Below are positions 21,869 through 51,673 of a stretch of DNA of 64,000 bases, piece after piece; position 1 is the stretch's first letter, and every line of letters starts with the position of its first letter. The notes under the pieces were generated by a model. The model had not been told where the DNA came from and ran no database searches. It saw nothing but the letters and a program-made list of their open reading frames with translations. The stretch spans positions 14,322,001-14,386,000 of the forward strand of contig OZ020244.1 in assembly GCA_963971285.1 (NCBI GenBank), written 5' to 3'. The stretch is from Astropecten irregularis (lineage: Eukaryota; Echinodermata; Asteroidea; Paxillosida; Astropectinidae). The translations under genes were made by a program, and so were the position numbers.

Positions 21869-22834
21869 TAGTCAAGGGTTGCCTGCTAATGATGTCGTGT
21901 CAATTGTTAGAGTTGTGACGGCACAACCAACTATGACGAGGGCAGTTGTCAGGCAAGCACAATTGAATGATCCCTTGATGGCGTGGATTATCAAAGCCAA
22001 AGAGGAGACAGCGGTTAGACCAGAATGGAATACACTGGCCCTAGAACCTAGAGTAGCAAAGTCGTATTGGTCCCATTGGGATCAACTGGAGGTCATAAAC
22101 GGTACACTCAAATACCGATGGGAAGACGATAACGGCAAAACGGTGAACTGGAAAACAGTCTTGCCGAAAGAGTTACGGGCAGGTATAATGACTGAGTTGC
22201 ATGGAGGCTCCACTAGTGGCCACCTGGGATTCCGGCGGACATATGGCCGATTAAGAACCCGATATTTCTGGTTTGGGATGGGGGCTGACCTCCGTTCTCA
22301 AGTACGGAAATGTATTAGGTGCGCAAAGAGAAAGTCATCCCCTAAGAAAGCTAGGGGCCCCCTACAGCAGAGGCATGCAAGTTATCCAATGGAGAGAGTT
22401 GCCTTAGACATTGTAGGTCCCTTGCCTGAAACAGCCGCAGGGAATCGTTGGATACTGGTAGTGGGAGACTATTTTACCAAATGGGTGGAAGCATACCCAC
22501 GTGCCAACACCTTGGCCGAAACAGTTGCTAAAACGCTAGTTGCGGAATTTATCTGCAGGTTGGGTATTCCAAGGAAATTACACTCTGACCAAGGCAGGAA
22601 TTTTGAAGCGACCGTGTTTTTGGAAGTATGTGATATGTTGGGCATACGAACAACGAGAACGACCCCCTATAACCCTAAGTCAGATGGGTTTATTGAAAGA
22701 TTCAATCAAACCTTGATAAATATGGTTGCTACCATGATCGAACCAAACAAACGACAACGCGATTGGGATGACCAGTTGCCATTCGCGACTTTTGCGTATC
22801 GTTCAACTCCCCGGGAGAGTACGGGAGAAACCCC
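21723..22834 (+). pseudogene. gypsy integrase, 5' part, cut by insertion
   Basis: Within the open frame beginning at 21723, residues 160 and 167 (His) and 197 and 200 (Cys) form the HHCC zinc domain. The catalytic core shows ALDIVGPLP (D229), HSDQGRNFEA (D289) and GFIERFNQ (E325), with the canonical 35-residue spacing of the last two. The family resemblance stops abruptly at STGETP (22834) and resumes at 49136 with the next expected integrase block (GRETFLPIDL). This shows that the intervening DNA is a later insertion. Confidence 0.92.
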
Positions 22835-22849
22835 CCCCCTTCCTGGAAC

Positions 22850-25192
22850 AGTCATTATGTGGCCCGTTTGTCAGTAAAGCTGGCATGATCTTTTCGCTCA
22901 TTCTGTGGCTTTCGCGTAGTGATATATATTGATGCGTAAGAAAAATTAATCCCTTTTCCCAAGTGCATGCGTACTTTTAGTAATACAACGTTCACTTTTT
23001 AGTGTTCATGAAACAAAAAGATAAACATAAATGTTATATAAAAAAATGTTCTTTATCTGTTCTCACACGATTCAACGGTAGAATTTATTGATAAATGCTT
23101 TATGAAATAATTGTCACTAGTATTTCTTAAAATTAAACGCTTAAACTCTCGATTTAACGTTTGTAAAGTATGCTTGATGAACAGCTCTGAGAAATTGACC
23201 TAACGATCGATTTTGAAATCGCCATGCATGTGATTTGTTTCTTTTTCATGTATAGTTGATAACCGTAAACACATGCGTGCGCCTCGAGTATTATTATATA
23301 GGGCATGTAAACAGCTGGCTGATTCCTGAGCGATTTCGTAGCGCTGGTATATTATAGTAAAGGTTTAGTGAGCGATGAATCTCTGTTTACTTCCACAAAT
23401 AATTACGCACAGTAAAATTAATGTCCTCTGTAAGTTTTGGTGCATGTAGGGCCGGCCCCACGTGGTAATTGGCAATAAAGGAACGTTCAAACACACTGAA
23501 AAGGTGCGATTAAAAGCCTTTTCACACGATAAAAACCTCGCAAGGCTTGCGAGTTTCTCTCATGCTTGAGAAATCTTACAACATTTTCATCATGTAGAAA
23601 AAAAAGACACGAATGTTTGAGAGTGACCGACGTCCCTGGTGAATCCTTGAGAAATTTGCGAGCCTTTCGAGATTTTTTTTTTAAGCCCGCGCGATTCAAG
23701 AGGCAATTTTGTTTTTCTGGCGTGTTCACACAGGCCGAAGAGTCACGACACAAAATAATCGTATGGGCTCGAATACTTGATAAAACTGTTTGACCTGCAT
23801 TTTGAACGGTAAGTTGATTACATTTATACATTTCTGTACTAAACACTATTAATCAGCGTAACGAAATGGAAATCGATCGGGAATAATATAGATCAGGTGG
23901 TTAAACAGTGTTTACTGTGGCAGAAACATTTTGCTTTCTCGTATTAAACATGCAGGCCGCTTTGTACAATTAGAACTCCATCGTTCAGGACCGTAAGAAA
24001 TCGCGTGCTTAATCAGCTCTGCAAACTTGCCTCCATGACTATATGATGAGTCTATCCCCTAAGTAAAACTGAACAGAGGCCAATTTCATAGAGCTGTTTA
24101 AGCACAAAGTTTGAGCATGAAGGTCTTCCCCGATCAAACAGAATAACCAAAATAATGTTCATGTGATGTTTACTGCTTTTGACTTCTATTTGGCCACTGT
24201 TTGATGAGCACAACATTCACAAGGATTTTTTGCTGCAGTTTTGTTGACCAACTTTGGTGCTTAAGCAGCTATATGAAATTGGCCCAAGGTACAACGGCGG
24301 ATCTGCGTTAACTAAATACTGAGCCACATATTAACAAAATGGCAGGGAAGGGAGGCGGGCGAGAATTTTCTCAATGTGTGGTTCAAGCTCAAAAGAAAGC
24401 CAAATGTTTCCATTCTAATCTAAAAAATACAAAAAGGAGGGCGGAATAACACAAAGGAGCAAATTCCAATAGGAAAATGTGCATTTTTCACAATTTGATG
24501 TAAAAAACATCGGTACAAAAAATGCCCGAAACCACTATGCAACCCTTGCCCGCAGTTGACTTGTGCTAGTACACAAATTGTATACGCACAGTGCTATTGC
24601 ACAGTGGATGCTACAATTGTTTAGATTTGTATTTTTTCGGGCAATAACGCATCCCCAAAGATAAAACAAACATCCAGGAAGCGACATATTTAAAAAATGA
24701 CACTTCAGGTGTATTATTTTCAATTTTATAAGGAATTTTTATGCATCATTTTGACAGGGCAAATTTACAATTTCGATGGTTATTATGTGGCTCCCTAAAA
24801 CTAAGTCCTTCGGTTTTTCATCGGTTTGTTGTCCATGGCATCTGGATTAAGTTTGATTGTATTAAATTGTGTCTATTTTATCTATATCCCTAAAAAAATG
24901 ACCTCCGAATTACACGTGGATTTTATTTTCCACTGAAATGTATTACAAAAACGTCATTATGTGGCTGGCAAGATGTTTTTGAAGGCATTGAAAAAATAGG
25001 TTCCTGTCAAGAAACCGAACAAAATGTTATTTTTATGCAAAGTATACCTTATTGCAAGTGTTAATGGGAAAGACCAATTAAGAATTATGCTGTTTTATTT
25101 CAAAAGTGCTATTTCTCCTTTTTGACAACTTCTTGCCCCTGACCAAATCGCGTCAAACGAGGGCGCATTATTTTGGTTATTCTGTGGCTCGG
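22850..25192 (+). repeat. Left subterminal motif cluster of the giant element
   Basis: The motif ATTATGTGGC or ATTCTGTGGC occurs at about 22853, 22899, 24781, 24955 and 25180, all in plus orientation. One inverted relative (GAGCCACATATTAA) lies at 24321. Similar motifs in mainly minus orientation cluster at the right end (48755-49095). They are candidate protein-binding sites for the recombinase or BEN protein. Confidence 0.6.
24077..24284. repeat. MITE-like foldback, GGCCAATTTCAT family, copy 1
   Basis: Ends are inverted: AGGCCAATTTCATAGAGCT at left and TATGAAATTGGCCCA at right, with GCTTAAGCA-like motifs inside each arm. Two relatives lie at 33164-33406 and 41894-42133. Confidence 0.75.
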
Positions 25193-25447
25193 GAATGAAA
25201 CCAAAAATCATCCTCTTTCATTTAAATCCTTTTGCATTAAATTAATGTCAGCAATTGTATTATTTGTAAATTGCTGGCTCAAATTTTAGAGCTCTTTAAA
25301 TCCTTTTCAAAACTTCATTTTTTTAAGAATATTTTTCATATAAAAAGATATTTTAAAATCATTCTAATATCCATACATGGTTCCAGTGATTGATTTACCC
25401 TGCACTTGACATAAGGACAAATAATTGATGTGATGATTACACCCCGG

Positions 25448-25870
25448 GTTTTTTATTATTATTATTATTTGTGGTTTATTAAAACACTGCTTATAGCAGC
25501 CCACAGGCTGAATTGCAAGTCAGTTTACATACAAATTTCAATAAAAATTCGTTGAGGTTTAAATCACAAAGAGTAAACGGTAAAAATAAAGGAGAATTGT
25601 AAGTACAAAGAATATAGTATAATATACATATCAAAAATTGCACAAGAATACAATACATGCATGTACTATGCTAAAAAGGACCGGCAATTTCATTGGGCTG
25701 GTGGGAGTGAAATGAGTGCGCTATTAACAAGTCTGGGGAAATATGGGACTGGACTATTATAAAAACGGGTTGTTTTTCAAGATGGAACATGAAGTCTGAA
25801 TGAATGAACTTGCTTTGTCTGAAAACTATAAAACTTCCTAGAATATCTTTGCTGACGGGATGATGACGTC
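25448..25870 (-). repeat. Probable LINE 3' end fragment
   Basis: A TTA-repeat tail (25452-25469) is followed by TTGTGGTTTATTAAAACAC and sequence resembling a LINE 3' UTR read on the minus strand. There is no coding part. The assignment is weak and rests on the simple-repeat tail and the AT-rich UTR character. Confidence 0.35.
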
Positions 25871-26828
25871 AAAATGGCCGAATAATACACAATCATACTT
25901 AGGGCCTACGGAGTGTCCAGTGGACTTGCAGTCTATTTCACAAAGATTTACGACTCATCTTTTACATGAGTTGATCCTTTTTCTATAGCAACTAGTACTA
26001 TGACATCACACTTTGTTTAGCAATAAAGATTGATATGCATGTTACGATCTGTCTTATTAGCCTTTCGTGAAATCAAGCCCTATATTATTAAGTCCATAAA
26101 CTACCAGGAAACAAAAAAACTAAAAATACCAACCCAAGTATTTATGTTGGGCTTTAAACTTCGTCACCTTTTCCTTCCACAGCTTTATGTTATAATTTTT
26201 GTTTACGATACACATCTTGGGCCTATTCTTATCTTCTTATCAGCTTAGGGGCCGTCCATTAAGTACGTAGGCCTACGCACGAAGGGAGGAGGGGGCGCGG
26301 TTGGTACCGAGGCGTATACGCCATGGGTACAGGGGAAGGGTGGGGGGGGGGGGTGTTCAGGCCAGCTTTATGAAATCGGCCCCAGATTATTACAAGTCAA
26401 CCAATCAGAGCTGATGACAAGTTGTGTGGGCATGCATGATATAAAACAAATAGGGGCCTAACAAAACGTTAATGGCATGAAATTATTTTTACCATTGTAC
26501 TCAATTCATTCATTATTTTGTATATTATTGACAGCATGGAGGTAGTTACCGTTAGCAAAAAATCTTCGAATTTTTGTTTATGGTATTATGGTATTTATTG
26601 CTGATTCCAATGATGAAATTGGGCAGGCCTGATCATACAGCATTTTTTGCAAACTTTCTGTAGCTGTACAAATATCATGTTGCACTACCCTTTCTTGTAG
26701 TTTTGTTTCTTTTATATTGAACATTATTGTTTGAATAATTTTATGGAACAAATTTTTGTTTTTTACAAAATAATGGTTTCACATAAAATATATATCCAAT
26801 GATGGCTCAACAAAGTTTGCACCCTAAG

Positions 26829-27300: not shown

Positions 27301-29130
27301 CCTATTTAAAAAAAACTTTTGCGCGCGAATCGTAACGGTTAGACAGTGTCAACAAAAATACATAGCGTCCTTAGCAACGCCGTGACCTTGACGTCATTAG
27401 GTGTAAGCGTACGCGCACGCCTACTATACTACAGACTACGATAAAGTACTTCCAAGGTCAAGGTCACGTCAAGCCACTTACGTACGTGTACGCGTACTTT
27501 CTATACTGACGCGTCGCCTTGTGCATGTGACGTGACATCGACTGTATACTGTACTGTTTTGTTACGTACAAAAGTCAAGGCCACGGCCGTGCTGTTTGTA
27601 CTCTGTCAACTTTTCATCAGCAAAGGTAGGCAAACTTTCCCACAGGTAACTAAGTAGGCCTACGGTCCTTTTAAAGATGCCCCTGCAAATATTAATGTTT
27701 GGTATTGGGCCTATGTCATGATATTGTAGGAAAGACTCGATTACTGAAACACGGAGAATTGTTTCAAGAAAACCCAGTGGACCGGGCACGGCTGTCGAAA
27801 ATACATAACATTAAAAACATTGTAACGTTAGGCCTATTTGTTCTAGGTACTTGTACATGTACATGTATGATGTAGCCTAGTAATAGTGGAAGGTGAGGGG
27901 ATTGAGGTTAGGGTTAGATGTGAAGGGGAATGGTAATATGATGATGCTTAGAGTTTCAGTAAAGTTAGGGTTGTGCTTAGAGTTAGAAATAAGCACCGAT
28001 TACATACATAGACTCAGTCAGAGGTGTGCAGAATTATGTTATTTTAATCTTTTTGTATTTTTTGTTTTTGCTAACGTCATCATGCAGTAAATTCGCCTTG
28101 ACGAATGTAGGCCTAACTGTAGTAGGCCCTATACGTACGTCGTGGCGTTTGCGGTATTATAATGGCTCCGCTGTTCGCGGACTTATTCTGATAAGTGTCA
28201 TTTTTAGTGAATATTCTTGTCGAAACTTGTATATTAATTGTCGACTTTTAGTCCTTGACCTTGTACTGTGTAATCCACCGGAGTTAATTTACGGTAGGCC
28301 TATGTAAATATTAAAATATTATGTAGGCCCTATGCCAGTATCACAAATTCTGAAAGATCCACAGGGTTGATTGTTTTTTTATTTTACTTTATTTATTACC
28401 ACTTCTATACAGACAACATATGCATGGGATAGGGGTACGAAGGTTTGAGCTAGGGTCAGGATTAAGACTTAGGTTTGGGGTGAGGGCTTGGGCTATTTAC
28501 GCTTGCGGTAGTTCGGAAAGCCGAACGTTGTTTTGCTTATTAACTATCGTTTAATCATTCTGTTTTCCCTTAGGTTAACAGCAGGCCTACGTGAAAGTTG
28601 CATCGAAACGTAAGTCCCCCATGAACTATAGTTGTCATTCAAATTCTTGCACATTGTCAACTTTGTATAATTTGCAGAAATAATTTGGATGCCAAGTGAA
28701 AATTGACTGAAGTGCTGCAAAGGTGACTAAAGTGAGGTTTACATTGCCTAGGCCATTTTGATTCCACCTATCTAGGGGCATTTGTATAAAAAATAACATT
28801 AAATGAAAGGCACACAGTCTTGTTTGTAGCTTAAACATGTTTGCACAAAAACAATGAATGTCATGCCAATACAGATATATCCATACAAGAATCATTAAGG
28901 GTTCTGCGTGCATTTACCACCCAAATACATGGATGCGGTAGTGTAGACACGTTCCTCAGACCTGGGGGGGGGGGGGGGTTGATCGTATAGCTGGGCGTAC
29001 TTCCATATACGTTTGTGCACAAAATCATTTTATATAGGCCCCCTATATATAAAAAGTCACAATCAGGGGGGGGGGGGGGGGGGGGGGGGGTTGCAACCCC
29101 CCTAGCCCCCCCCCCCCCGGATCTACGCCC
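27301..29130. other. Spacer upstream of the recombinase gene, with poly-G tracts
   Basis: No coding region was recognised. It contains CpG- and TACGTA-rich stretches (27380-27560, 28120-28200), degenerate GGTTAGGGTTAG sequence (27895-27925) and long G or C homopolymers at about 28963-28978, 29067-29090 and 29107-29118. Part of it should be the promoter and 5' UTR of the recombinase gene, but no promoter element can be assigned. Confidence 0.4.
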
Positions 29131-29220
29131 ATGCATGGATGATCCAGACAAAGTACCGGTATACATAACACACCTTCAATTTGTTTTCCCCTACCACAGG
29201 CGACCTGGTATTTCAAAAAT

Positions 29221-32200
29221 ATGCAGGGCGAGGTCAGCGATGATGATGAGGTGACTATAGTTCATGAGTAATTCCACTCTTAATGTGAATGCATCTTTTG
29301 ATAGTACAAATAAATACATGTTTCAATTTATATTAACCGAGCCTGTTTTTTTTTTTTTAGACTTATTCAGAGTCCGATGACGAGTGGGTTCCAGAGGACG
29401 ATCAAGACAACGACAGTTCCACTGCAGAAGATGTGGCATCTGCAGAAGATGTGGCTCACTTCGAATCAGAGAACAATGATGGAGACATCGAAAGTGATCC
29501 CGATGTCGACGTGGCAACGAAGGATGGCCCTGATAACGCACTGGTGGATGGTGCTGATGACCCACAGGTGGATGGCGCTGATGACGCACTGGTGGATGGT
29601 GCTGATGACCCACAGGTTGATGGCGCTGATGACGCACTGGTGGATGGTGCTGATCATAATACCCCGGAGGTGCACTTGAGCAAGACAAGACCCAAGAAAA
29701 GAATAACATATAAGCCAGTAAATATCTCTTATTATGAACTTCTCATAGTTATTTAATCTTAGTTTTCAATCTTAGTTGTCCATCATAATTAAAGTACTAC
29801 ATGTAGTACAGCTTCTTGGTAATTTAGCATTTGAGTGGAAATAAGATTTAATGTTTGAACCTCACTATTACAGCTAGGTTTCCGATAAACAAATGGATTA
29901 TTAACAATTTTTTCAGCATTTGTTTCAGCAGGACGAAAATTGCTATAAACAAAATAATGTTGGCATTTGGGTGCGAGACATACCTGCCAGTACTGGAAGA
30001 AATCCTTATTGTTCATTAGCTTAAAGTAAATTAATTTGCATACTGAAGGTATTATCACTTTAAATAGAGGATGTAATATGTTTCTGTCTTCATTTGTAGA
30101 GTAAAAAATGCAAGACCAATGTAATCACAACCCACATTATTATGTTGTTCTCATGTCACTTTCAGGGAAAAAGAGCCTCGAGAAAGTGCACTTTGTGCAA
30201 TGGATCCTACATGTACTTGTCACAGCACCTGAAACGTGCGCACAGTGTTGTAAACCGAAAAAAAAAAGGCTGGAGGAGCTTGGAAAGGCAAGAGAGAGGT
30301 AATAAAGGGAAAAATTGTAAACAAACATGTAGGCCTAACCCCTCCTCCCCATGTGCACCATGTTTTGGTGCTTTGGGTTTAAACATTTTGCTAGGGGCCA
30401 ATATACAGGGTGTCCCAGAAAAAACGAAAGCGAGATTTATCAATGTATTTTGAATAATAAATGAAACATAATCTGAAAAGCTTAGTTTTTCAGCTTTCAT
30501 TGCATGCTTATGATGCACACTTTATGCATGAATGAATAAAGACAATATGAAGAAAGGCTATCAAACTGAGACGTGTAATTTATTATTCACAAGTGATATT
30601 AATATATGATAAAACAATGATAAATCTCGCTTCCGTTTTTTTTCTGGGACACCCTGTACACTTGTGATGGGCCATACACCTTGATTGCACAGGTGCACTA
30701 TACATGCTATACGTGCATTACGACAACAGTAAAATCTCTACATACATTTTCTAAAATTGTTAAGTTTAATTTGTGTTACTTCAGGCAGCCAATAGTCCAC
30801 CAAAAGACGTCATCCAAACCCGCCAAGAGGGCTACGCACACCTGTCCCTATCCTGAGTGCCCAGGACGTGGACTAAAAAGAATTGATGTGCACCTACGTA
30901 CACAACATAACTTGAAGGTTTGTGTGAACACTAAACAAGCTTTGTTCCCTGTTGCACAGTAAGATATTCTTGTCGAACAATACTTTCTTCCGGGAACCAT
31001 TGTTAACCCCATTATAAACCCAGTTGTGTGGAAACCAATGTTAAACCAACTTTAAGCCTTGCAAAATTCAATAAAAATGAATAAAAATAAAAGCTTTTCG
31101 CTGACGCGGAAACGCGGAAACTGAAAAATCAGAACAAAAAAAAACTTTTTCCGTTGAACAGGGAAAAGCAAAAAATCAGAACAAAAACAATACATTTTCC
31201 GTTACTCACGGAAAAGCCAATAAAGTCAGTTCTGATTTCTATTCCAACAGCTTGGATCAGCAGCATACAAAAGCATGCTGGTGAAGGCCAAAAATTCCTC
31301 CAAAGTGCAACCTGAGCGCAGTGAGCCTTTGTCTTCAAGGCCTTCTTCACTGTCTGGTACTGAAGGTAAGTAATGATGAGTAGACATTGTATTGAATCAC
31401 TTGTGACGTTTCTCCTCATTGTCTGAGTATAAGTATACTATCTGAAATTCTCTCTTGTTTGGTGAAACGAAATAATTATATGGTCCCATACCCCCTAGGT
31501 TCAATCATCCAGGTATGCCTTTGTGAAACTTGAGATTAAAATCTGAATTCCGATTTGTTTTTGTTTAGATTCTAATTCAGAATTTCAGCTTTGTATAGGA
31601 ACTTTAAAATTTCAGCTTTTTCCTCAGTGTTTTTAGATTTTTTTTTGAGTGGCCTCTCACAGCCCTGATCAACTCACTGACTTACATAATAAAGGTTTTA
31701 TAGGTTCGAACTGTGAGATGTCATATTACCCATTAATTTTTAGGTGTTGAAATATTCCATGTGGGGTCTGGCGTAGAAATTGGTTGGATGAACGTGTTTC
31801 GTTACAGTTAAAATTCTCCACTTTCTGACAGCCAGTGCTTGAGCATAGCGAAACTGTTTTGTTGAGTTGAAATACAAAATAGAGTTTTTCTCCATAAATA
31901 TCCCTACCCCTTTTCCTTTTCTCAAATCTTGAGAAGGATCCTGCAAAGATCAAAACGCGCCAGGCCCTCCTAACTCCAAGCATTTTATTTTAAATTTCAG
32001 GTGATTATATTGGCCGATGAGCAGTTTATTACTTGTTTTAAATTTGGATTTGGTTTAAAAACAATGTCCCCACGGAGCTATTTTTCTAAGCTGAACGTCC
32101 ACGCTTCATAAGGGGTATACTTACTGTCAATGACTTTAAATATGTATTGTATTCTAAGCACATGATATGTAAGAAGCCAACGTGGCAACAGAATTGATCA

Positions 32201-35200
32201 CAAGCTGATAGCTGATTGTGCACAGAATACGGGGAGTGTTTGTGTATCTTCCTTGCTCATTTCTGTACATAAAATGCCTTCTTTTTCTTCCACACAGAAA
32301 TCATCAAGAACTTCGGGGAATATGTTTTTGCGTACAATGGAGCAACATCTGGGGCCAGGCGCACAGCTAATAACACCGTTAGCCAGCTTAAATTGGTGTC
32401 TGCCTGCCTGGGTGCTGCTATTCCTCAGTTGGTAAACCGCAATGTTCCAAAGAAGTAAGTTAATAAGGTTTGTCATAACGGTATCGTTACCTCCACTTCC
32501 GCATAATATGCACTAAGACCTGAATTTGTTTTACATTTTGCATCATGGCAAGTTGCAATTACATAGCCTGTAGCCTTTTTTTAGTGTGAAACCTTATCTC
32601 CAATTGCACGCCTTTTTCCGGTATCTTGGTTCAGCTGTATCTCCTTTGCTTTCCCGACAAAGACACTTTTGCATTTTGTACTAGACAAGGCCATTGTAAC
32701 TTTAAGGTTGAAGACACCTTCACTATGACTTAAAATTGTGTATTTTTGTCCTGTTTTGTTTCTTTTACGGTAACAGACTGGTGCTTTGTCTTAGAAAAAC
32801 AAAGAAACAGCCACAGACCATCTACAAGTACATACTAAGCCTGAAGCGCTTTTTAGAATTTCTTCAGCTTGAGGAAGACCAAGCGGACTTCCTCAAGCTG
32901 AAGCAATCAGAAATAAAAGGGACGCTCAAACTCGCAATGCATTTTGCGAAGTCTGTTCAGCCAGGCATAGCCCAACGAAAAAACGAGATCAAATCCCGCA
33001 TCAATGGTATGTATCATTTTACAAATGCCCATTTTCATTAGGTAAATCAGAAAATCAGAATGCTTTTTGTCTGTTCTTTCAGTCCCATCATCTATAAAAA
33101 AAAAAATTGACAAGACATAACCACTTAATTAAGCAGTAGTAGCCAAAAAAATGCTTCTGACCTGGGGCCAATTTCATGGAGCTGCTTAAGCACCAAAATT
33201 TGCTTAAGCACTAAAAACCTTGGTAAATAAAGTCAGTATGCCAGCCAAAACTCCTTGTGAATGTTATGCTCAGCAAACACTGGCCCAATACAAGTCAAAA
33301 GCAGTAAACATCACTTGAACATTTGGTTGGTAATCCTGTTTGATCAAGGAAGACTTTTCATGCTTAAGCAAATGTTGTGCTTAAGCAGATCTATGAAATT
33401 GGTCCATGGCTAATCACTCTCTACTAACAGTACTTTCAGCATTTATTCACGTAAGAATGACTAAACGTATTATTTTATTCTATTACAGACCAACTTCTAC
33501 AGGCCAAACACATCCGGCTTTTTCACAATAGGGCTGCAACTGAGTTGCAGTCTCTGACGAACCCTAGTAAGACTTTTTGCCAACTTACTAACGTTGATTC
33601 AATTACATAATAGGATAGGAAATTGTGTTGATACACATTTTACATATTTACAAACTGAATCTTCAAACGTTTTTTACAAACATGAACAAATACCATTTGA
33701 CATTAGTAAAATACATGTACAACTACTTGTCTGTTGCGCAGGAACAACACTCAACAGTTCAACGGCTGATAGACTACGAAATTTAATCATCATGAAAATA
33801 CTCCTTAACCAGGCCCCCCGCGCGGGCGTCATTGAGAATGCTAACCTTGGCGAGTACCGTCAAAGAAAGCATACTACAATGCCAGAGACATTTGAGGAGG
33901 TGATGTATTTCCAGGTATGTACTACCTTTGCAGTGATTGTTTTAGGCAGTTAACCTATATAACTTTGTGAGTTGAAATGTAATGTGCATGAAATATTCGT
34001 AGAGAATGTCACAAAGAGAGTTTAAATAAAGTGCAGGAATAATTTGAATAATCTATTAATCGTGACGTATAAAAATGTATCTCAAACAAAAGGTTTACAG
34101 ACACAAAACAGCCAAGATGGGACCAGCAACAGTCTTCCTCAAATCGGAGTTGGCACGAAGCTTAGAGTATTACGTCCAGAATGGCAGACCACTATCTGGA
34201 TGCAAAGGTAACCTATGCTGTAAAAAGGTTGGCAAGTGCACAAACATTTGGCTTATTCTAAACAATAAGGCCGAAGACACGTACGTAAGACTTGAAGCTA
34301 TTGACACACTTGAACTTTATATTTTTGACTTCCTGGTTATCCAAAATCGCTGCAGCAACAAACACGTATATCTCCAAAAAATGTGTTACGTTAGCAGCAC
34401 CTTTCTATTTGGGTAGTTTTGCCACTGTGAAATTCGGTTTAACTCATTTTGGGGACAACTTCATACCTGTTATAATTAATTGATACCTTATATAATTATT
34501 GGAAGTTAATGGTGATGACTAAGCTTTTTTTATTTGCAATGTTAATGCACATGCAGGAGTACACATCAAAGATGACGCAAGCCCTTTGTTTTTGATGTCA
34601 AGAGGACGACCAGTCACAAAAGTGGCAAGCATCACAGCCAGGACTTGGCAGTCAATGGGGCTAGCAGGTGTTTGCACTCCAACCATAGTACGCAAAACTG
34701 CTGCAACCATGGTAAATGAATATCATAGCTTTATGAGATATCAATGACAACTGTAGAATGTTTCTTTTTTGAAGGGTAATTTAAAATACAAAGAATTTCG
34801 TACTTTTTGTTCCTACAGGCTGTCCAAACCCTACAACCACAACAAGCAGATGGTGTTGCACAACTCATGGACCATGACCCACATACCCAAAGAGCATATT
34901 ATGTCGCGACACAGACCATGAGGGACAAACTTCTGGCATGGGGCAAAATAAGTCAAGTCATTGCATCGGTTAGTTCTGAATGATAGGATAAAATGGTACA
35001 CTCAATCAATGTATGGTTACACAGAAGAGAAACTTGAAATGAACAATTAACGACATTCCTTTACCAAAACAATTATACGAGTGTACACACATTTTTGCAA
35101 GTAGCATACATTTATAAAAAGTAAATATTGTAGGCCTAAGGAATTTGGAAAGACCTAAACATTTTTAGCAGTGATGATATTTTTTCTGGATCTGAGAAGG

Positions 35201-38200
35201 CATTGATTTCAGTCATGCAACTTTCAAAAGTAAATCGTAGCACACAGTAACCTGTAAAAGTTTAATGTTTTAGAGAAAATTAAGTTTGCTCTCTTTTCTC
35301 TTTTGGTCACCAATTATGCACTGTACCCTTGCCTAATATTATGTGACATTCTCTTTTTCTGAAAGCCTACAAAGTGTTTCAGGGCGCCCTAATTGTTTTC
35401 TTACTGCGCACACTCTTACTTTCTTTTATTCCCAGACTGACACTCCAACTCATATTCCCAATGATGCTCCAACTGCTATCCCCACTGGTACTGATGCTCC
35501 AAATGATGCTCCTATTGACACAGATGCTGAAATTGTCGATCAGGCACAGACTTTGCCCACAGTCCAAGACAATCAACAACAGGTAAACTGCAAAATATAG
35601 ACTGCTGTTGGTGAACAAATTTGAAAAAAAAAAAAAAAACCAAATGGGCAAATACATAACTAATGGCTAAATAAAAAAAATAAAAATGGCTAATGTGTAC
35701 CAAAAAAAAAAACAATAACAAATGTTGGCCCTTTTTCTGTTAATCGGAGCGCCTCACAGCCATGCTGTTGTTTTGAGATCACATTTAGTTTTTGCAGAAA
35801 GATGACCTTGCATGTACAAAAATAGAATGTACATTTTACCACTGCTGCTAGTATTAATATTGTAACTTGGACCATTTGATGCAAATAATACTACATGTAT
35901 GTATTACTATGACCTGTGGTCGATTTTACCCCCATTATAATAATGGAGGTCAATGGAGCACTCAGTGGACACGACTCACAAATTTTCGGTGCCTGTCTTC
36001 ATCACTATCCTTGTCATAAAAATGCAATGAATCTAATATGCATTTATCTTAAACTTTTCCACAAAGGACGCTGAACAAGGTGGGATAGATGGGGGTGTTG
36101 CATCACATCACTTTGGGGTGAGTACACAGGCAATTTAAGTTGTACATACATGTGCACATGGATGCCCTTTTTAACAGTAGTTTAAGAAAATACTGAATAT
36201 AAAAAATGGAATCTTGGACCTTTCGCAAAAAACAATGCCTCCACCAACTGTACACACTTGAACAGAGTTGGTAAAATTAAAGCAAATTAAAGGCAAATCT
36301 TTCTATAAGAATGTAGACTACATTCGTACAACACATGAAAAATCACAAATTTCACCAGAAAACCTTTAATCTGTTACATAACTCTATGCATAGGCCACAG
36401 ACTTCTACACCCAGTCTTCCAGCCAAGGCGTCCGAGAAAACGTGTACAAAGTTTACAGCAAAGATTTACAGGATGCCATGATGAGGACGTATATCGAATT
36501 CAAAGCTATGAGCCCAAAGTGCACATACACAGAAGCTGTGAGTATTTAGAGTTGTTTCTTTTAATACACAGAGTATGTGAGTGGCCATACACACACAAAT
36601 CTGAAAACACCGAGGAAAAAGTTGACATTTTCAGGTTATGATAATTTTGTACTAAACTAGTAAGGTGTAAAAAAAAAAGCTGAAATTCTGAGTTAAATTC
36701 TCAGCCAAAATAAATTTGAATTCAAATTAAAAACTTAAGTTCCACATCCCCCCCCCAAAAAAAAAAAATGGAAACCTGGGTCACACAAAACCTTGAAAAC
36801 TAAATGCATTTGTGAAAAAATGTGATTATTTATTACTATTAGGGTCAAAACTCAAAATTGTATTACAAAAAAATGTAATCCATAGGTATGCAAAGTGTAC
36901 TGTACAGTACTGTTTTTTCATTTGGCACGCCATTTTTTTTTTTTTTTTAATGACTTGTTTCTTGGAAATTTCTTGCACATAAACAGTCCCGCTACATCAA
37001 GAAGAAGTTGCGGGACACGTCCAAGTATAGTGTAAAGCAACTGGCCGACAAGCTCCGACATTCAAGTCAAAACAATAAAGCAGGTAAAACAAATTAATTT
37101 CCAGATTGAACTGAAATTGCAAACAAACAAACAACCAGAGACCTTGGTTACCATTTTTCATGGAATTAAATATGCTATTCGATGGTGACTCTGGGGCTGT
37201 TGTAAACATGGCATATCCATGCATTCTTATGCACATATTGATAAATTCTCATGTCATGTACCCTACAGAGATCAAGAGACTGGGTGTGAACAAAAGGTAA
37301 TTCATTTCATCATTATATTATAATCATCAAATAACCACAAGGGAAACTGTCATTAAGTCATTGAAAGGTGAACAAAGACTAAAATTTACTGGAGTGGGAT
37401 TCGAACCAGCGACCTCCTAAAGTACAGTACAGGCACTCTACCAAGTGAGCCATCCAGCCCTACATTGGTGGTGTTCCTAAGAATTGACTACTCGGGACAC
37501 CACCAACATAGGGCTGGATAGCTCAGTTGGTAGAGCGCCTGTGCGGTATTCATGAGGTCGCTGGTTCGAGTCCCGCTCCAGTGAATTTGTCTTTGTTCAC
37601 CTTTCATTATTTCATTTTACCCTCTTTTCCCATTATGATCGATTGATAAGTGTGGGACATCTCTCATAATTCACATGATTATCAGATTATTATTGTGTGT
37701 ACCTACACAGGAGAGCCATTCTAAATTCATCTATTATTTATTACATGACTATCCTTTAAAAAAATGATGTTTTTGCCCATTTCAGATGCCTCAGTACAAT
37801 CACAGACTCCTCGGTTAAATTCATTATGCACAAGCACATGGGTTTCTTTCGGGATATCGTAAGCGGAAAGGTAAAAAAAAAAAGGAAATAAATTTTCTTT
37901 GATTTTTCAATTTATACCTTATAAAATGTGTGTTATGCATAACTGGGGTGGAGCCACTTGTGTTAGTGTGTGTGCATTTTGTCCAATGTCTTCCTAAACA
38001 AGTATAGTTCAACGTGTGAAGTGTTATTGAAAAATTACATCTTTTCTTTGCAGATTCCTTTCGCTAAACACGACACCTATCAAATGGGTCCATTGCATAG
38101 AGGTGAGACACTGTAGAAGCATTTTTATTAGGAAAATAGAATGCCAAAGCAAACTTATGTACAACTTATGTAAATGTACAATGTAAACATGCATCATAGC

Positions 38201-39048
38201 CTGGGGTAACAACAAAGAAACCTTAAATTACAATCTCAGAGACTATTGCCACTTGTGCTTACAAGCTTGAAACCGGTTCACCAATATATTGCCTAATCGT
38301 TATTTCTTCATACTTACATAAAAATCCATGGTATTTGCTTTGATGTTCTGTCTTTCCTTCAATTTAAGCTCGAATGCCACCTCCAACATACGGGAAACTC
38401 TCCGAGGAAAACTATGAGACAGTCTTCAGAGAGCTGATGACAGAATTTGGACATGGGGATACTGCTGTAAGTATTCAAAATTCAATAAAGTGGAATTTTT
38501 CTTGAAACTCCTCCTAGATCTACCAGTTTCGATAAAGCCTCTTTGTGCGCTACGTCGTCTTTATGACACACTGTTGAACATGTATGATTACCCGCACTGG
38601 CCTGCACACTCGTACATGTACGTGCATAGAGTAAATAGGCTGCGCCTGATTCAAAAGTAACGCATGTACAGTGTGTTTTCTTCAATTTTGGGTGGAGATT
38701 TTACACGATTCCCAAGACTATGTTCCAGAGAGGTCTGTGCTTACGTGCGTGCGGATCACCCGTACGTACATGTACGGTCAGCGCGGGTAATAGTTTCGTA
38801 CGTTCAAGCGATATAACATAGTCGTGAACCAAGACTAAGTGAATCATAGCACAGAACATCAATGCAAAGCATGTACTGTGATATTATACACTATGTCTCA
38901 CTGCCTGCCTTTTATATTTATCTTTTTTTAGATGATCGAGTACATTACCAAAGTCCTCATGCATGAAGCTTTCATCTTTCTGGCAACAGACCACCTCGGT
39001 GTCAGCCGCATCGTGGCACAGAAAATCCTGCTGGTGTCAGATGATTAG
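29221..39048 (+). CDS. Multi-exon tyrosine recombinase with zinc fingers
   Basis: At least 21 exons joined by GT/AG introns: 29221-29250, 29361-29717, 30166-30298, 30785-30917, 31251-31365, 32298-32454, 32777-33006, 33489-33566, 33742-33914, 34093-34207, 34557-34711, 34819-34968, 35436-35582, 36067-36117, 36394-36537, 36987-37083, 37269-37296, 37786-37870, 38054-38102, 38369-38466, 38932-39048. Phases agree at every junction except 30298/30785, where one base is missing. The product is about 880 residues: acidic leader with 8-residue repeats, C2H2-like fingers near 137-155 and 194-215, an N-terminal core-binding segment (TIYKYILSLKRFLEFL, about 315-330), then the catalytic domain. That domain has R438 (QAPRAG), K474 (YRHKT), T550-x-x-R553 in place of HxxR, H578 (LMDHD) and tyrosines 586/587. 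About 270 further residues are unrecognised. The start is uncertain; ATG 29135 plus a 5' extension is also possible. Confidence 0.85.
29521..29652 (+). repeat. 24-bp coding minisatellite in recombinase exon
   Basis: Five 24-bp units alternate between two types, giving an 8-residue acidic repeat (DNALVDGA and DDPQVDGA). Because the unit is a multiple of three the reading frame is kept. The copy number may vary between alleles. Confidence 0.9.
30404..30658. mobile_element. Tc1/mariner-like MITE in a recombinase intron
   Basis: 30406-30656 is bounded by inverted repeats of about 38 bp starting CAGGGTGTCCCAGAAA and is flanked by TA on both sides, the target site of Tc1/mariner elements. It has no coding capacity and lies wholly within the intron between 30298 and 30785. 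Confidence 0.85.
33164..33406. repeat. MITE-like foldback, GGCCAATTTCAT family, copy 2
   Basis: Ends GGGGCCAATTTCATGGAGC and CTATGAAATTGGTCCA are inverted copies, with GCTTAAGCA motifs in both arms. It lies in the recombinase intron between 33006 and 33489. Confidence 0.8.
37362..37608. repeat. Foldback element built from two tRNA-like arms
   Basis: Each arm contains a tRNA-like sequence with an A box (TAGCTCAGTTGG) and a B box (GGTTCGAGTCC on plus at 37563-37573; GGATTCGAACC on the opposite arm). Flanking GAAAGGTGAACAAAGAC at left and GTCTTTGTTCACCTTTC at right are inverted too, so the whole unit is a palindrome with a short centre. The acceptor stems do not pair properly, so neither arm is a functional tRNA gene. 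It resembles a tRNA-derived SINE turned into a foldback. It lies in the intron between 37296 and 37786. Confidence 0.8.
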
Positions 39049-42133: not shown

Positions 42134-42305
42134 TTGCTTAGCACAACAATGTACTAAGCATGACATTTCTTTCTCAATAAAAACAGGATTAAAAGCCAAT
42201 AGCGCTCCGCACTTACGCTAAAAATAGCACCGGATCTCAGAAAAACATTGCAACCATGCACGTGCGTGAGTGTGCGCGTCCATGTACACTACGCGTGTGA
42301 GACAA

Positions 42306-42802
42306 TAAGGGGTTTTCGATTGTGTCGACGAGGACGCCGTTCACGTCCACAACGGACGTTCACTCAATTAGTCAACACCCCGCGTTCACCTCATTTTGGA
42401 GGCGTTTCGTTAACAGTCGACGCACGTCAAGACGTCACGTGATGTCTTTGCAATAAATATTCATAACGTGCGCCATCTTGACAGATTGATTAAGTGTCAT
42501 GGTAAACCTCCACCGACTACGTGAAGCTCTTGTTTTGTATTATTTTGACGACGTGTTGGATGATGATGAATTTATGTTGTAGTTTGAAGTTGTTTCCATG
42601 TTGGACAATGGCACACCTTCAATGTCTGTAAATGTGAACGTGGTCACGCGTTCTCCATTGAGGTGAACGGCAAAAGGGCTGTGGACGCGTCCTAGATTCT
42701 GCCAGTGGCCGTGCCAGTGGACGTGGCGCTTGCGCAGATTGTAAAAATGACGTCATCACGTCGCAGTCCACTATGTGAACGCGTCAATCGAAAACCCCCT
42801 AA
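42306..42802. mobile_element. Non-autonomous element with Harbinger-like ends
   Basis: GGGGTTTTCGATTG follows TAA at 42306-42308, and its inverted copy CAATCGAAAACCCC precedes a TAA at 42800-42802, consistent with a 3-bp TAA duplication. A short open frame near 42499 (MVNLHRLREALV...) stops after about 28 codons and may be a remnant of an encoded protein. It is not the same subfamily as the Harbinger at 10621 because the termini differ. Confidence 0.55.
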
Positions 42803-43145
42803 TGTTTGTCTGACAGCCGGCGATTTTGTGACGTCATTAGTCTTCTGGGTCGAGAACAAGACTCTCAGTCTGGCTTCCATACAACCTAATGACAAAATGA
42901 ACGCGATATTAGTTTGCTCGAGGGCGCATACCATTAGATCTTCATTAAATGGTGCATACCGTACCGTACCAAGAAGCTGGTGTACAGACTATAATGATGA
43001 CGTAACCCAGATTTTTACATTGAATGAGAAAGTTTTACGGTATTGTCCGGCAAGTTCGTTCGACCACATTACACACAACAGTATCAGTTCCTGATATTAT
43101 TTGTTCATACTTGAAGTAGTTTAGTAGGCCGTTTGCGATCTCGTA

Positions 43146-46100
43146 ATGTTTGTGCTAGTGTTTTGGGTTGACACCAACCAAACTAGCATTCTGGATGAGT
43201 CGTTTGTCATGGACAAAACCATGCTGGATGATTCAGTGAAAGTTGGCATGGTGAAGCATGGCGATTTACTGAAGAAGGCACCCAAGCACGGGTGGAAGGC
43301 CTATGCCGCAAGAGTACTGGCAGTGAATGGTAAGTAAGGGAAAGTTTTGTCAATGGTTATTAGATACGGGTTGGGCCTAAATTGATTGATTATTTATTGT
43401 GTGTGTTTAAATTTACAATTCTGCTGTGGCATGTTTTGTATGATGTTTGGTTCTTAAATTTAAAGTTAGCCTAAGTTTATACAGTGAGTGTTATGGGTGT
43501 ATATTTTGCCGGCACCGGTAATCTTCATGCAAACGCTATTTTGCCGTTCCCTTAAATATTCTGATTGGCTAATCTAACGTCCAGCAAAAAAACTTTTAAA
43601 GAAAGAAGGCCTGCATGGCCAACGAGAAGAATGCATGATGGTGCCGGCAAAATATACACTCCAAACTTAAACTGGGCCTCTGGCTCTAGCATGCCTAGGC
43701 CCTATACAGTACATGTACATCATCATGATTGGCATAGGTCAAAGAACAGCACTCACACTAATCAAAAATGTAGACATAGGCCCAACAACACACCTAGTGA
43801 GGCTCTGAAAATTTTTTTTTTTCCGAGTCACAAGAAAATAGCGAAACCTGACTCAATTTTTCTTATACTAACAGGCCTAATTGCGATAATTATAAAACAA
43901 AAATAATAGTTTTGATCTTACACGGAGATCAAAACTTTTTTCGGTCTTTGTTTGGCTTATTTCTGGATAAATAGGGCCAAGGCCTACACCATTTCAGGCG
44001 GAAATATTTTAATGGTATATTTCTACCAGCACCGCCTTCATATATCCACTACATGTAGCGTTATCTTGGTTGTTATTGTTTTAGACCTGGTACAGTCTAG
44101 TGTTAAGTCATGTGGAATTTATTTGGGGGGGAGTTGCTCCTGATACCAGTGAAGGGGAGGGTATATTATTATTAGACTTACATAAACAAGTAGGCCAGTC
44201 CTCCGTTTACATTCATTGTGAACTTATGCCATGATGTGTTAAATTGAAGGTGTGTCTGTAGGCCTTGTGATGGCCTATACTGTGAAGTGACTTTGTTGAG
44301 TCTGCATTGTAACACAGAGGTGCTCGACTCATTAAATGTCCACTTCCAAGAAATTTGTTCCTTGATTTTCGTGCAAGTGAAGTATCATAAAATGTGAAGC
44401 GGCAACAGTTTCGCCTTTTTTACAATGCAACACAGAGGCAGGGCCAACAATCTAGGGCTTTTTGGTCAGTGTTCATGCACACGATGTACATTTTATTTAT
44501 ACTTCATTCATTTTCTCTTAATAGACAGTAGGTCAGTCCTCCTTAAGAAGGAGGACTCATTTCTCCAGGACTTGGCTGGAACAAGTGCTGGAAGTAGTAC
44601 CACTACCAGTTTGGATGACAGGACAGGCAGAGCCAGAAGAAAGAAGCGTGCGTTCTCATCGGAAGAGGAAGCCGAGACCCATGCCGAGACAAATGAAGAA
44701 AAGACAAAAAGATTTGACGGGGAGGTATTATATATTACTTAAAAAGTAATGGAGTCATTACGATGCCACATGTGGTGTTGCAGTAGAACAAGTAGTGTGA
44801 GCAAGATCCCAAAATTAATTGGATGAGTGTGCTGGCAAATAAAAGCAAATTGAGCAAAATTTATCAAATTTATTATTAACATCTCTTTTTATTGTCAACT
44901 TCCGTTGCCAATTGACAGAGGCAGCGTAAACGAAAAGCAGCAGGCAGACGGCAGATGGCAGACTTCATGAAGTCTGCTACCATTTCACTGGAATCTTCTT
45001 CGGATGATGAAGATGGGATGAGCGATGGTGCAGGCATGAAGATCTTAGCTTTGGAAAAGACTGTTGCGGAAATGAAACAGAAAATCAAGAAGCTGGAGAG
45101 GCAAAATCTTCTTCTTCAAGAAGGTAATTAACCAAAAAAAGGAGAATTGTTGAGTGCCCGCAGACAAATTAAAATAAAGGAAATCTTCAATTGTAAGGGG
45201 ACAATTTGTTGAATGATTAATTTGAGCTTCCCATGGATGGTAAACAATTAAATGTAATATTTGTTTTATGGTAAAATGTGCTGAATTTACTATTACTGCA
45301 TTATTTCCAATGTTGGTTTGTGAAAGATTGTTCATTTTATTTGTCCTTGTAAATTGAAGGAACTAATTGTGGAATACTGGAATTCATTCAATTTTAACTA
45401 TTCTATTTGTTAGGGAACTTAACCATAATTATTTGGTCATGGTTTAACCTTGTAGTTTTTGTTCCCTTCACATAATAACAAATGCAGGCTTAGGTGACAG
45501 ACTGTCAAAAGTCGTAGAGGATGCCCTTGCCAACTGTGGGAATGTTCATGCCACTTCAATCAACAGTACCGAGGTGTCAGCAGTGGCCAACCATCCCAAT
45601 GAACCAGAAGCAAAGGTATGTTGGTAATATTGGTTTGCTGTAGTTTTATTTTGCTAATTTATTTCATCATTTAGTATACTTCTGTTATGGTTTAAAACTT
45701 TAAATTGATGATTGACACTGTAATGCAAATTCCCAAGTTCCAAGACATTCTTTTGAATGATTTTTTTTTTCTGTGCCACACTGAGGGCAGATTTTACACA
45801 GAACTGCCTAAAGGTACCATGCAGCTGATGTGTCGAGCTAGTTTCAGTTCATAAAGGGTCTAAAGGAACTAATTACTGGTCACTGCCAGTGCAATTTGTT
45901 GGACATTCAAACATTTGTAGTCTTTTTGGTGTAAATGAAGAGAAATTATTACAAACCAGAGAACAAGAACACTAAGGTTGATCTTAAATGTAAATCAAAT
46001 GTTATTGCAAGGCAAAGTGTGAGGTCACAATACAAATCACTATAGTCATTCTGGCAGCTCATCTTCAGATTGATCTTAATGCTTCGTGAATCCAGCCCAG

Positions 46101-47115
46101 GTCATGAAAGGAGTGTCCTGAACTTGAGAAGATTTAGCATTAACCTCTAAATGCACTTGAAAACTGGACAATCCTGGAAATATGGTGGACTGGTATTGGA
46201 AACTATGAATGAATAGATTATCAAATGCTTTATAAATCCTATATATTACATATTTTCTATTTATTTTCAACTTCTAGTCAGAAGACAAGCAGTTCATTTC
46301 ATCGGCTATGCTACAACAAATACTTCGTGCGAAGGACATGGGCAAGATAACGTGTCAACTCATGACCTCCATCTTCTCCCCCAAAGAGATGTCAACCTCC
46401 TTGGTGACAGGAAGAAGGTTGAAACCTGAGGACAAGGACAGACCTGTGCTTGACCAGGAGAAGGTCAACTACATTTTAGGTATTTTAAAACAATGTTTGA
46501 AGCACAGATAAATTTATCTCAGCCATATTGAAGAAATAATGAATGTTTATTTTTCGCCGAATGGAATTGAACAGTCCGTCTGTCACCTCATGAAATTATT
46601 TTTACCATTCTACGAATGTGAAAACATTCATTTTATATCATGTCCACATAAATCAATTGTCATCTAATTGGTTGACTGGTAATAATCTGGTACTTCAAAG
46701 TTCTACTTTTTGACTACGGCAGTCAATTTATTCGCGTTTTATTAACCTCCGCCATGTTACAGATAATGTGGTGACATGTGATCAAAATCTGCCAATCAGG
46801 GGAGTGGGATTCATGAAGGCATGGTATAATCAAAACTATTATACATCATTCAAAAATCATTGTCATTAGACTGGTGAAACATGTGTCTTGTGTGATACTT
46901 CATTCTTTTGAACTCAATCTTAACATTTTTCCCAAAATGAAGCTCATCACACATTTTTTGTTTTGTTTGTTTTTGTTTTCAATTTTATAGCCACTGTTCT
47001 GCAAAGGTTTCCCTGTGCACAACCCTCAGAAGTGCGGTCCAAAATGGCCCAGAATTGTAAAGATTTGAGGGCTTCTCAAAAGAGACAAGCCGCCGCTGCC
47101 ACCTTGGACAACTAG
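43146..47115 (+). CDS. BEN-domain protein, six exons
   Basis: Exons 43146-43329, 44525-44724, 44919-45123, 45488-45615, 46278-46479 and 46991-47115 join with agreeing phases (1, 0, 1, 0, 1) into 1044 nt and 347 residues, ending in TAG. The first 61 residues hold KHGDLLKKAPKHGWKAYAARVL. A basic segment (RARRKKRAF) and acidic serine runs follow, then a coiled coil at about 169-196 (LALEKTVAEMKQKIKKLERQ). The BEN domain is at about 245-335, with ITCQLMTSIFSPKEMSTS, LVTGRR, PVLDQEKVNYIL and LQRFPCAQPSEVRSKMAQNC. BEN domains bind DNA or recruit chromatin proteins, and occur in host regulators, some viruses and some transposons. It lies 4.1 kb downstream of the recombinase on the same strand, inside the same insertion. 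The role here is unknown. All splice sites look intact. Confidence 0.88.
43494..43662. repeat. Short foldback in BEN-gene intron 1
   Basis: GGTGTATATTTTGCCGGCACC at left is mirrored by GGTGCCGGCAAAATATACAC (43640-43659). The spacer is about 110 bases. It looks like a MITE in the intron between 43329 and 44525. Confidence 0.75.
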
Positions 47116-47180
47116 CTTTGCAGCCATCTTTATTAGTCCGTAGTCATCCTTATCAACTGTTTTCTGATATTGTTATTTTT

Positions 47181-47186
47181 AATAAA
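47181..47186 (+). terminator. Likely polyadenylation signal of the BEN gene
   Basis: AATAAA 66 bases after the stop codon of the BEN-domain gene, followed by GT- and T-rich sequence. Confidence 0.6.
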
Positions 47187-47269
47187 TTTATCTATGAATT
47201 TTCCATTGTGGAATTTTTTTGTACTGCACTATTTTGGATTGTATGGTGATTTCTTTTTAATGTTGGTTA

Positions 47270-48045
47270 CACTGTGATCTCTGTATGGTTACACTATGGG
47301 GACACTGTGATCTCTGTATGGTCACACTATGGGGACACTGTGATTGCTGTATGGTCACACTGTGGGGACACTGTGATTGCTGTATGGTCACACTGTGGGG
47401 ACACTGATATCAGTATGGTCACACGTTGGGGACAATATGATCTCTGTATGGTCACACTGTGGGGACACTGATATCAGTATGGTCACACGTTGGGGACACT
47501 ATGAACTCTGTATGACCACACTATGGGGACACTGTGATCTCTGTATGACCACACTATGGGGACACTGTGATCTCAGTGTGGTCACACTGTGGGGACACTA
47601 TGATCTCTGTGTGGCCACACTGTGGGGACACTATGATCTCTGTATGACCACACTATGGGGACACTGTGATCTCTGTATGACCACACTATGGGGACACTGT
47701 GATCTCTGTATGACCACACTATGGGGACACTGTGATCTCAGTGTGGTCACAATGTGGGGACACTATGATCTCTGTGTGGCCACACTGTGGGGACACTATG
47801 ATCTCTGTATGACCACACTATGGGGACACTGTGATCTCAGTGTGGTCACACTGTGGGGACACTATGATCTCTGTGTGGCCACACTGTGGGGACACTATGA
47901 TCTCTGTATGACCACACTATGGGGACACTGTGATCTCAGTGTGGTCACACTGTGGGGACACTATGATCTCTGTGTGGCCACACTGTGGGGACACTATGAT
48001 CTCTGTATGGCCACACTATGGGGACACTGTGATCTCGAATTATTT
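47270..48045. repeat. 33-bp minisatellite, about 23 copies
   Basis: The unit resembles CTGTATGACCACACTATGGGGACACTGTGATCT. The later part follows a 99-bp three-unit period. As 33 is a multiple of three, one plus frame (47377-48117) stays open and encodes an 11-residue repeat containing TLWGH and DL. There is no supporting start context or splice evidence, and the array begins about 155 bp past the BEN gene stop. Confidence 0.9.
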
Positions 48046-48751
48046 ATCATTATTGAGATATTGAGGCCTATTATGCAGCTAACAAAAAATACAAATTCAG
48101 TTTTAAAATTGAATTGAGCCTATCACTCGGCTTTCTTAAGACACGTCATAGGCTGATAAGAGAAACACAACAGGCCTAAGATTTGGAGTAAAGAAACTTA
48201 TACCATGAAGCAGCTGTGGCAGTCAAATGGTGTAATTATCTTTACTCTTTTGTAATCTTCCCATAATATCCCATGATAGTGGAAAAAGTAAAGGGTGTAT
48301 AGTGTGTAGACCAGGCATGCCGGGAAAACGGTAGGCTAGCCGAAGCCGTTGGGCCTACTAATCTCATAACAATTACTTTTAAGAAAACTCCAATACAACT
48401 TCACCTGCCAAACTTGTCGTATATTACCTTCATCACAAGGTGTATCAATTTGGCATATTACTGGTACCTCGTATGGCCCTCCACAACATTCATCCTTGCT
48501 GAAAAAATTCCTTTGCACAAATTTTCACATTATGTATGAAGTGTTGTTTATTGGAATTATAAGCAGGTACTAAGAAAACAAGTGGACACAGGTGATTCGT
48601 CATCGTATTTTTTTAAAGGCGTATCGATATACAATCTTCAAGCAAGAGAAAAATATTCATACTTTCAATTTTGGGTAAAAGGAGACATTATTTTGTAGAT
48701 ACCGCAAAAGGTATAATTTTAGGGACCGCAATGATACTTCTCGCCAAACCA

Positions 48752-49097
48752 CATAATGAATTTTGAGCCACATTTTACGAAAAGATTAAAATGAAAGCAT
48801 TGTTGTCTAACCATGGAATATTTTCAGAATTAAAATAAAAAATAAAAATGCAACAAGAATCATAAACATTGGTTCGATAAAAGTAGAGTTATGATGATTT
48901 GAATTTTTAAGCGAAACTCATAGTTCTTTGCAGTTCATTCACCCTGCCTCGGTCTTCTTCAGTTAAGCCACATAATAATCAGTGTCACACACTGAGCAAA
49001 GCCACATAATGAACGGAAGATGTTGCAAAATCCACACATTAACCAAAATAATGGTTATTATGTGGCTCTCCCTACATGGTGCACAGCCACATAATGA
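48752..49097 (-). repeat. Right subterminal motif cluster of the giant element
   Basis: CCACATAATGA or close variants occur at about 48757, 48967, 49003, 49029 and 49086 in minus orientation relative to the left cluster. GAGCCACATTTTACG lies at about 48771, and one plus copy (ATTATGTGGCTC) is at 49055. The last copy lies about 40 bp from the junction, comparable with about 20 bp at the left end. Confidence 0.6.
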
Positions 49098-49135
49098 ATT
49101 AGTTTGTACACGTATATATTGGCGCGGAAAACCCC

Positions 49136-49524: not shown

Positions 49525-49594
49525 CTCATTGATGAAAAATTCAGTGAATAAAATATGTATGTACTTTTCGTGTTTTCTTAAATTCCTGTTCAGA

Positions 49595-51669: not shown

Positions 51670-51673
51670 GTAT

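Follow-up and report, generated by a model that had tools for sequence, protein, structure and literature searches.

A 26-kb mobile element with an intron-rich, tyrosine-recombinase-like gene interrupts a gypsy retrotransposon of Astropecten irregularis

Introduction

What is the 26.3 kb of DNA that lies between the two halves of a gypsy integrase in Astropecten irregularis, and how might it have come to be there? The sequence under study is a 64-kb stretch of contig OZ020244.1 (hereafter the window; the contig is C1 in our genome searches), and coordinates are window positions unless a contig is given. The genome searched was GCA_963971285.1 (475.7 Mb, 168 contigs), other contigs of which are labelled C11, C23 and C42. 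An earlier note on this DNA had proposed that the insert is a single mobile element with a multi-exon tyrosine recombinase (YR) and a BEN-domain protein. Movement of more than 20 kb by site-specific recombinases is established in bacteria and, through the Starships, in filamentous fungi; the 26-kb size and the many-exon layout of the recombinase seen here are unexpected for this enzyme class in animals. We find that the insert is one mobile element, and we put at roughly three in four the probability that it is an autonomous DNA transposon with its own many-exon YR acting as transposase.

The insert is one mobile element with fixed ends

The host is a gypsy element whose long terminal repeats (LTRs) are identical at 792 of 822 aligned bases (30 differ, with 90 gap columns) and are flanked on their outer sides by the GTAT duplication that the earlier note had reported (Table 1). 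Its integrase, which the note had seen stop at STGETP (22834) and resume at 49136, was found to lose its reading frame within a C-run at 22831-22839 and to regain it at 49136. A gypsy sibling on C23, which shares 98% identity with it in the 229 bases ahead of the break, runs uninterrupted over the insertion site and reads ...GAGACCCC/TTTCATG..., where the window reads ...GAAACCCC + CCCCCTTCCTGG ... GGAAAACCCC/TTTCATG. It follows that the gypsy element is older than the insert.

Searched against the genome, 361 bases of the left end matched one further locus, and the final 996 bases of the element gave three close matches and one distant one. Copy 2, at C1:14,831,024-14,863,523 and 486 kb from the window copy (copy 1), is full-length: it aligns from window position 22832 through 49135 and stops at identical bases on both sides. 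A comparison covering 4.8 kb of its left flank and 7.5 kb of its right flank found no gypsy match; the right flank matches window 59.5-59.8 kb at three repeats, each over 63-85 aligned positions. The two copies differ at only 109 of 25,720 aligned bases (0.42%), and copy 2 is collinear with the window copy except for an extra insertion of 6.66 kb, a missing piece of about 0.5 kb and small indels. Copies 3 (C11) and 4 (C1:9.89 Mb) have the right end in common with the element and are degraded farther in; both are mosaic or truncated, with matching right parts and, in copy 3, a piece of the YR gene, and they give no support for the left end.

At the right junctions AAAACCC or AAAACCCC stands ahead of four different flanks, with AAAACCC present in all four copies. 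The element ends in GCGCGGAAAA on the right and begins with TTCCTGG on the left, where its exact edge is ambiguous inside the C-run, and CCC(C) is present at both window junctions. No terminal inverted repeat was seen in the element; it is the sub-terminal repeats that are inverted instead.

These results confirm that the 26.3 kb is one mobile element, as the earlier note had claimed in calling it a single insertion locus. The support that the note had looked for, copies sharing both ends in unrelated flanks, was obtained from one second copy, while two further copies share the right end only. Of the outcomes that it had set against its own claim, namely a composite, an assembly join and the lack of a second copy, none occurred, as judged by the ends of copy 2 and the uninterrupted sibling. 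Nested pieces do lie inside the insert (an insertion like a miniature inverted-repeat transposable element, inverted repeats and a minisatellite), and both full copies are on one contig, as might be expected if one element were imitated by several insertions independent of each other, by a segmental duplication or by an assembly join. We consider this very improbable: copy 2 keeps its collinearity, apart from the differences listed above, and has the same end bases with unrelated DNA outside them, copy 3 lies on a different contig, and paired repeat arrays link both ends. On these grounds an assembly join and a composite insertion were rejected.

Sub-terminal repeat arrays mark both ends

Allowing no more than one mismatch, we counted 11 occurrences of the 11-mer ATTATGTGGCT in the outermost 2.5 kb on the left and 0.5 kb on the right of the element, and none in the rest of the 64-kb window. 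The motif and both end zones were picked after the sequence had been inspected; 300 Markov sequences gave an expected count of 0.08, with a maximum of 1. Its orientation is plus in five of the six left copies and minus in four of the five right copies. Under a stricter pattern, copy 2 retains 9 of the 11 repeats, including five left plus copies, and four of the five right repeats are present in copies 2, 3 and 4 as well. Because repeat arrays occur at both, the left and right ends belong together. In their arrangement the arrays resemble binding sites, and may serve as such for a transposition protein.

A many-exon gene carries the catalytic residues of a tyrosine recombinase

Both genes that the earlier note had recognized in the insert hold, the call of the first as a YR resting on the register of its catalytic residues. 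The hand-made model of this gene comprises an acidic N-terminus, two C2H2-like motifs (in exons 3 and 4, recognized by eye), the core in exons 9-12 and a C-terminal region. The window copy has a frame slip in exon 3, at an A-run (30258-30267) that has another length in copy 2, where the recombinase frame is open throughout; the slip is possibly an assembly error. None of the splice sites is altered in copy 2, and the two copies differ at 4 of 2,640 exonic sites and 29 of 7,164 intronic sites. Comparison with copy 2 also revealed a palindromic repeat in one intron (37362-37606), which matches its own reverse complement at about 84%.

We aligned eight members of the family and compared their core, using hhalign, with a profile of XerC, XerD, FimB, FimE and lambda Int. 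In a single collinear alignment of 138 columns the R, K, R, H and Y of XerD, which we take to be its catalytic residues, fall on identical residues of the window protein, within QAPR, HKT, VRKTAAT, MDH and YY, and they do so in the order and spacing usual for a YR. The R, K and R are invariant in all eight family sequences, as are the H and Y in all seven that reach that exon. On this register, set beside a profile score that is not significant and a structure model that is poor (see below), the evidence that the first gene encodes a YR is good, not conclusive.

A YR is also encoded by retrotransposons of the DIRS and Ngaro types (PMC3212892). We regard an origin as such a retroelement as exceedingly improbable and rejected it: no reading frame for a reverse transcriptase or RNase H was seen in the insert, and the 20 coding introns disfavour an RNA intermediate. 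The intron-rich element is thus set apart from DIRS and Ngaro on its gene content.

The recombinase belongs to a conserved family

The recombinase core gave 50 exon matches in the genome, which we assigned, according to their positions, to 16 loci that include fragments; the count is that of our own grouping, and the locus on C42 may be an allele of the one at C1:35.2 Mb. At ten further loci that were compared, the similarity is interrupted close to these same exon boundaries wherever the stretch of DNA used covers them, so that the introns seem older than the subfamilies. Subfamily F1 consists of the window element and copies 2-4. F2, whose core is 62% identical, was found in three places, counting the possible allele on C42, and F3 in two. 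Comparison of the F1 core with that of F2 gives differences at 33% of first, 22% of second and 61% of third codon positions, a pattern that indicates a protein under constraint (purifying selection).

The F2 elements carry a repeat variant of their own, AATGTGTGGA, found (with at most one mismatch) twice on the presumed left side and six times in the last 0.35 kb before the presumed right end; these counts are given without a shuffle control. Near this right end, which was placed from one locus, a stretch is homologous to that of F1 (76% over 139 bases) and likewise leads to a C-run. Throughout the stretch that it shares with C1:35.199-35.207 Mb, the C42 contig is 99.3% identical, and so no left edge of F2 is visible there. 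For the F2 copy at C1:10.68 Mb, no same-strand match of at least 100 bases was found in the left stretch compared, and on the right side the match ends about 340 bases before the presumed terminus.

Outside Astropecten, the only protein relative among the best 7,995 and 7,993 candidates of our YR searches was LOC119732635 of the sea star Patiria miniata, annotated as an uncharacterised protein. It has the same YR core, 51% identical over the core to the window protein and 74% to F3; unlike the window protein it is without the N-terminal part, at 483 amino acids. This points to a recombinase lineage that predates the species split or was shared by transfer. The C-terminal residues 438-482 of LOC119732635 showed weak matches to PWP3A-B_C (3.9e-5) and RTC4 (0.01), both under the Pfam cut-offs. 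In viral contigs, 119 stretches fitted a search pattern, none was confirmed and no relative was found. Within the genome, 10 of the 16 YR loci are on C1, which makes up 39.0 of the 475.7 Mb, and nine of these lie within 10.6-14.9 Mb; either local hopping or a chromosome region that retains such insertions could account for this clustering.

A BEN-domain gene was found almost exclusively in one subfamily

The BEN domain of the second gene (PF10523) scored 29.1 bits, compared to a Pfam cut-off of 23.2. The gene is whole in copy 2, where it differs from copy 1 at 3 of 1,032 exonic and 11 of 2,922 intronic sites; its residues 165-347 are matched in copy 4, and two exons in copy 3. In the genome search its matches lay in the four F1 copies only, except for a single weak one on C23 (C23:10321842-10321964; 64%, residues 306-344, E 6.2e-5), which is possibly the source or a relic of the gene. 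The last 5 kb of F2 yielded no exon resembling those of BEN, and a search of protein sequences with the BEN protein returned nothing among 7,739 scored candidates. BEN domains have been described as DNA-binding. Since the gene was found essentially in the F1 copies only, we take it to be accessory. The 10 longest other reading frames of the insert, with that of the minisatellite excluded, matched no Pfam family.

A model for recombinase-driven movement

These data are best read as a new echinoderm lineage of DNA transposons that are giant, rich in introns and driven by a recombinase, and which would work like Cryptons or Starships and match the domain of neither. In this model, the recombinase, probably by means of its zinc fingers, would bind the 11-bp sub-terminal arrays at both ends and would then synapse the two ends. 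The element would be excised, most likely in the form of a circle closed over a short CCC(C) core, and the core of the circle would recombine with a C-tract at a new site, leaving CCC(C) at both junctions. The BEN protein may act as an accessory DNA- or chromatin-binding factor, in F1 only. An excision-circle integration model of this kind has been proposed for Cryptons (PMC3212892), and we apply it here to a far larger element. Since AAAACCC is found at the right end of all four copies, the C's seem to be borne by the element and matched in the target, as in a recombination core. Recombinase chemistry, a circular intermediate, binding of the repeats, the role of BEN and indeed movement of the element by its own recombinase are inferred, and the model makes testable predictions for the circle junction and for repeat binding. 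If it is correct, an animal lineage that moves such an element with a spliced recombinase of 21 exons would mean that animals can host self-mobile units big enough for whole genes, and the enzyme would be a natural recombinase that acts at C-tracts.

Several observations weigh against this reading. The full-length copies are two only, both on C1, and the left end is visible in these two only; both observed left edges sit in C-rich sequence, and the C-run at this edge differs between them. In the proposed catalytic site, a T stands where HxxR has its H. The hhalign score of 19.2 is not significant, being topped by 1 of 20 column shuffles (the reversed profile gave 12.4), and sequence searches of Pfam, NCBIfam, PHROGs and PDB returned no YR match. 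The structure model of LOC119732635, made with four window exons, had a predicted local distance difference test (pLDDT) value of 43.8, too poor for a fold search. Furthermore, sub-terminal repeat arrays are better known from DDE transposons, and the CCC(C) repeat of 3-4 bp fits a recombination core and a target duplication alike and cannot separate the two.

The last two points raise the possibility of a real element moved in trans by a DDE-type transposase, with the YR and BEN genes as passengers or helpers and CCC(C) as a target-site duplication; inverted sub-terminal arrays together with a short direct repeat do fit the pattern of DDE transposons. However, no DDE gene was present among the 10 insert frames checked against Pfam, a check that short exons could escape, the right end reads AAAACCC in four of four copies regardless of the flank, and it is the YR gene, not BEN, that is conserved across the subfamilies. 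We therefore consider movement by a DDE enzyme improbable and retain the recombinase as the presumptive transposase.

Relation to known elements

Cryptons are a few kb in size. Like the element described here, they are DNA elements with a YR and no reverse transcriptase; their ends carry short direct repeats, to which the CCC(C) of the present element may correspond, and a circle model has been proposed for them (PMC3212892). The element could thus be a very large and divergent Crypton, placed phylogenetically inside a Crypton group and enlarged by introns and an extra gene, and as a YR-only DNA element with short direct repeats at its ends it would answer to the published description. Against this, Cryptons are defined by their YR domain (DUF3504, or GCR1_C in CryptonF), and neither the Crypton-derived DUF3504 nor GCR1_C was matched in Pfam scans at E values up to 1. 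Cryptons are characterised by direct repeats of 4-6 bp and no terminal inverted repeats; the present element shows CCC(C) at its junctions, no terminal inverted repeat that we could see, and inverted sub-terminal repeats. It differs from Cryptons in its 26 kb, its 21 coding exons, its sub-terminal arrays, its C2H2-like motifs and its BEN gene. A Crypton affiliation is a tentative alternative that we hold to be unlikely, though less so than movement by a DDE enzyme.

The Starships are large YR-led DNA elements with additional genes and a target preference, defined by DUF3435 as the leading gene (PMC12134995). The element resembles them in all three respects, as a large DNA element with a YR, additional gene content and a target preference. 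It differs in that Pfam scans gave no match to DUF3435 (PF11917), in that the YR gene, its first gene, begins 6.4 kb inside the left end and is not leading, in its lack of a large gene cargo, in its sub-terminal repeats and in its animal host, as Starships belong to Pezizomycotina fungi.

The earlier note knew of no described animal family with this content. The literature that we searched is consistent with that statement, as no description of such an element was found in it, with a scope that left Repbase and most subscription papers outside. In a review of giant eukaryotic transposons (PMC6431247), 'Crypton' occurs 0 times in the main text, and 'tyrosine recombinase' occurs twice, both times in the section on bacterial elements. 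The element is a candidate YR DNA transposon of a new type, and its superfamily is possibly new. Taking the argument further, we lean towards an undescribed echinoderm superfamily of giant, intron-rich YR DNA transposons, with sub-terminal arrays specific to each family, C-tract targeting and an optional second gene: this would be an independent animal counterpart of the Starships, and its last movement would be recent enough for two 26-kb copies to differ by 0.4%.

Features of the window and minor observations

The coordinates of the element, its parts and its host are collected in Table 1.

Table 1. Features of the insert and of its gypsy host, in window positions.
Feature	Position	Strand	Remarks
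Mobile element	22832..49135	+	copy 2 matches the same span at both edges; sibling target uninterrupted
Left sub-terminal repeats ATTATGTGGCT, at most one mismatch	22853..25190		+ at 22854, 22900, 24782, 24956, 25179; - at 24322
Right sub-terminal repeats, most of them in the opposite orientation to the left ones	48746..49096		- at 48747, 48966, 49000, 49085; + at 49057
Right terminus GCGCGGAAAACCC(C)	49122..49135	+	common to four copies
Tyrosine-recombinase-like gene, 21 coding exons	29221..39048	+	hand-made exon model, consistent phases
Catalytic exons	33742..34968	+	R (QAPRAG), K (RHKTAK), R (TIVRKTAAT), H (LMDH), Y (AYYV); kept in paralogues
BEN-domain gene, 6 exons, 347 amino acids	43146..47115	+	Pfam BEN 1.2e-6
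Nested insertion of about 0.5 kb, inverted ends GGGGTTTTCGATTG	42307..42815	.	absent from copy 2
33-bp minisatellite, about 23 units	47269..48036	.	inside the element
5' LTR of gypsy host element	16983..17877	+	GTAT duplication at 16979-16982
3' LTR of gypsy host element	50841..51669	+	GTAT duplication at 51670-51673

The 6.66-kb insertion in copy 2 (C1 ~14,835,736-14,842,394) has inverted ends, CACCGCTGTT.../...AACAGCGGTG, and a duplicated GTGAC, and its empty site is kept in the window copy at ~27527-27532. One of its frames, of 305 amino acids, matches RING and RAG1 importin-binding domains (4.6e-5), and another matches DUF1280 (4.4e-16); on these matches it is probably a RAG1-like transposon.

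The gypsy host contains an extra reading frame between its integrase and its 3' LTR (49451-50535), with a zinc-finger-like motif, CHRCPKTFMQRRSLNRHAQDNH, recognized by eye. Elsewhere in the window, two long frames (10932-11807 and 13252-14646) resemble, again by eye, two proteins of a Harbinger-type transposon, the Myb/MADF-like one and the DDE one.

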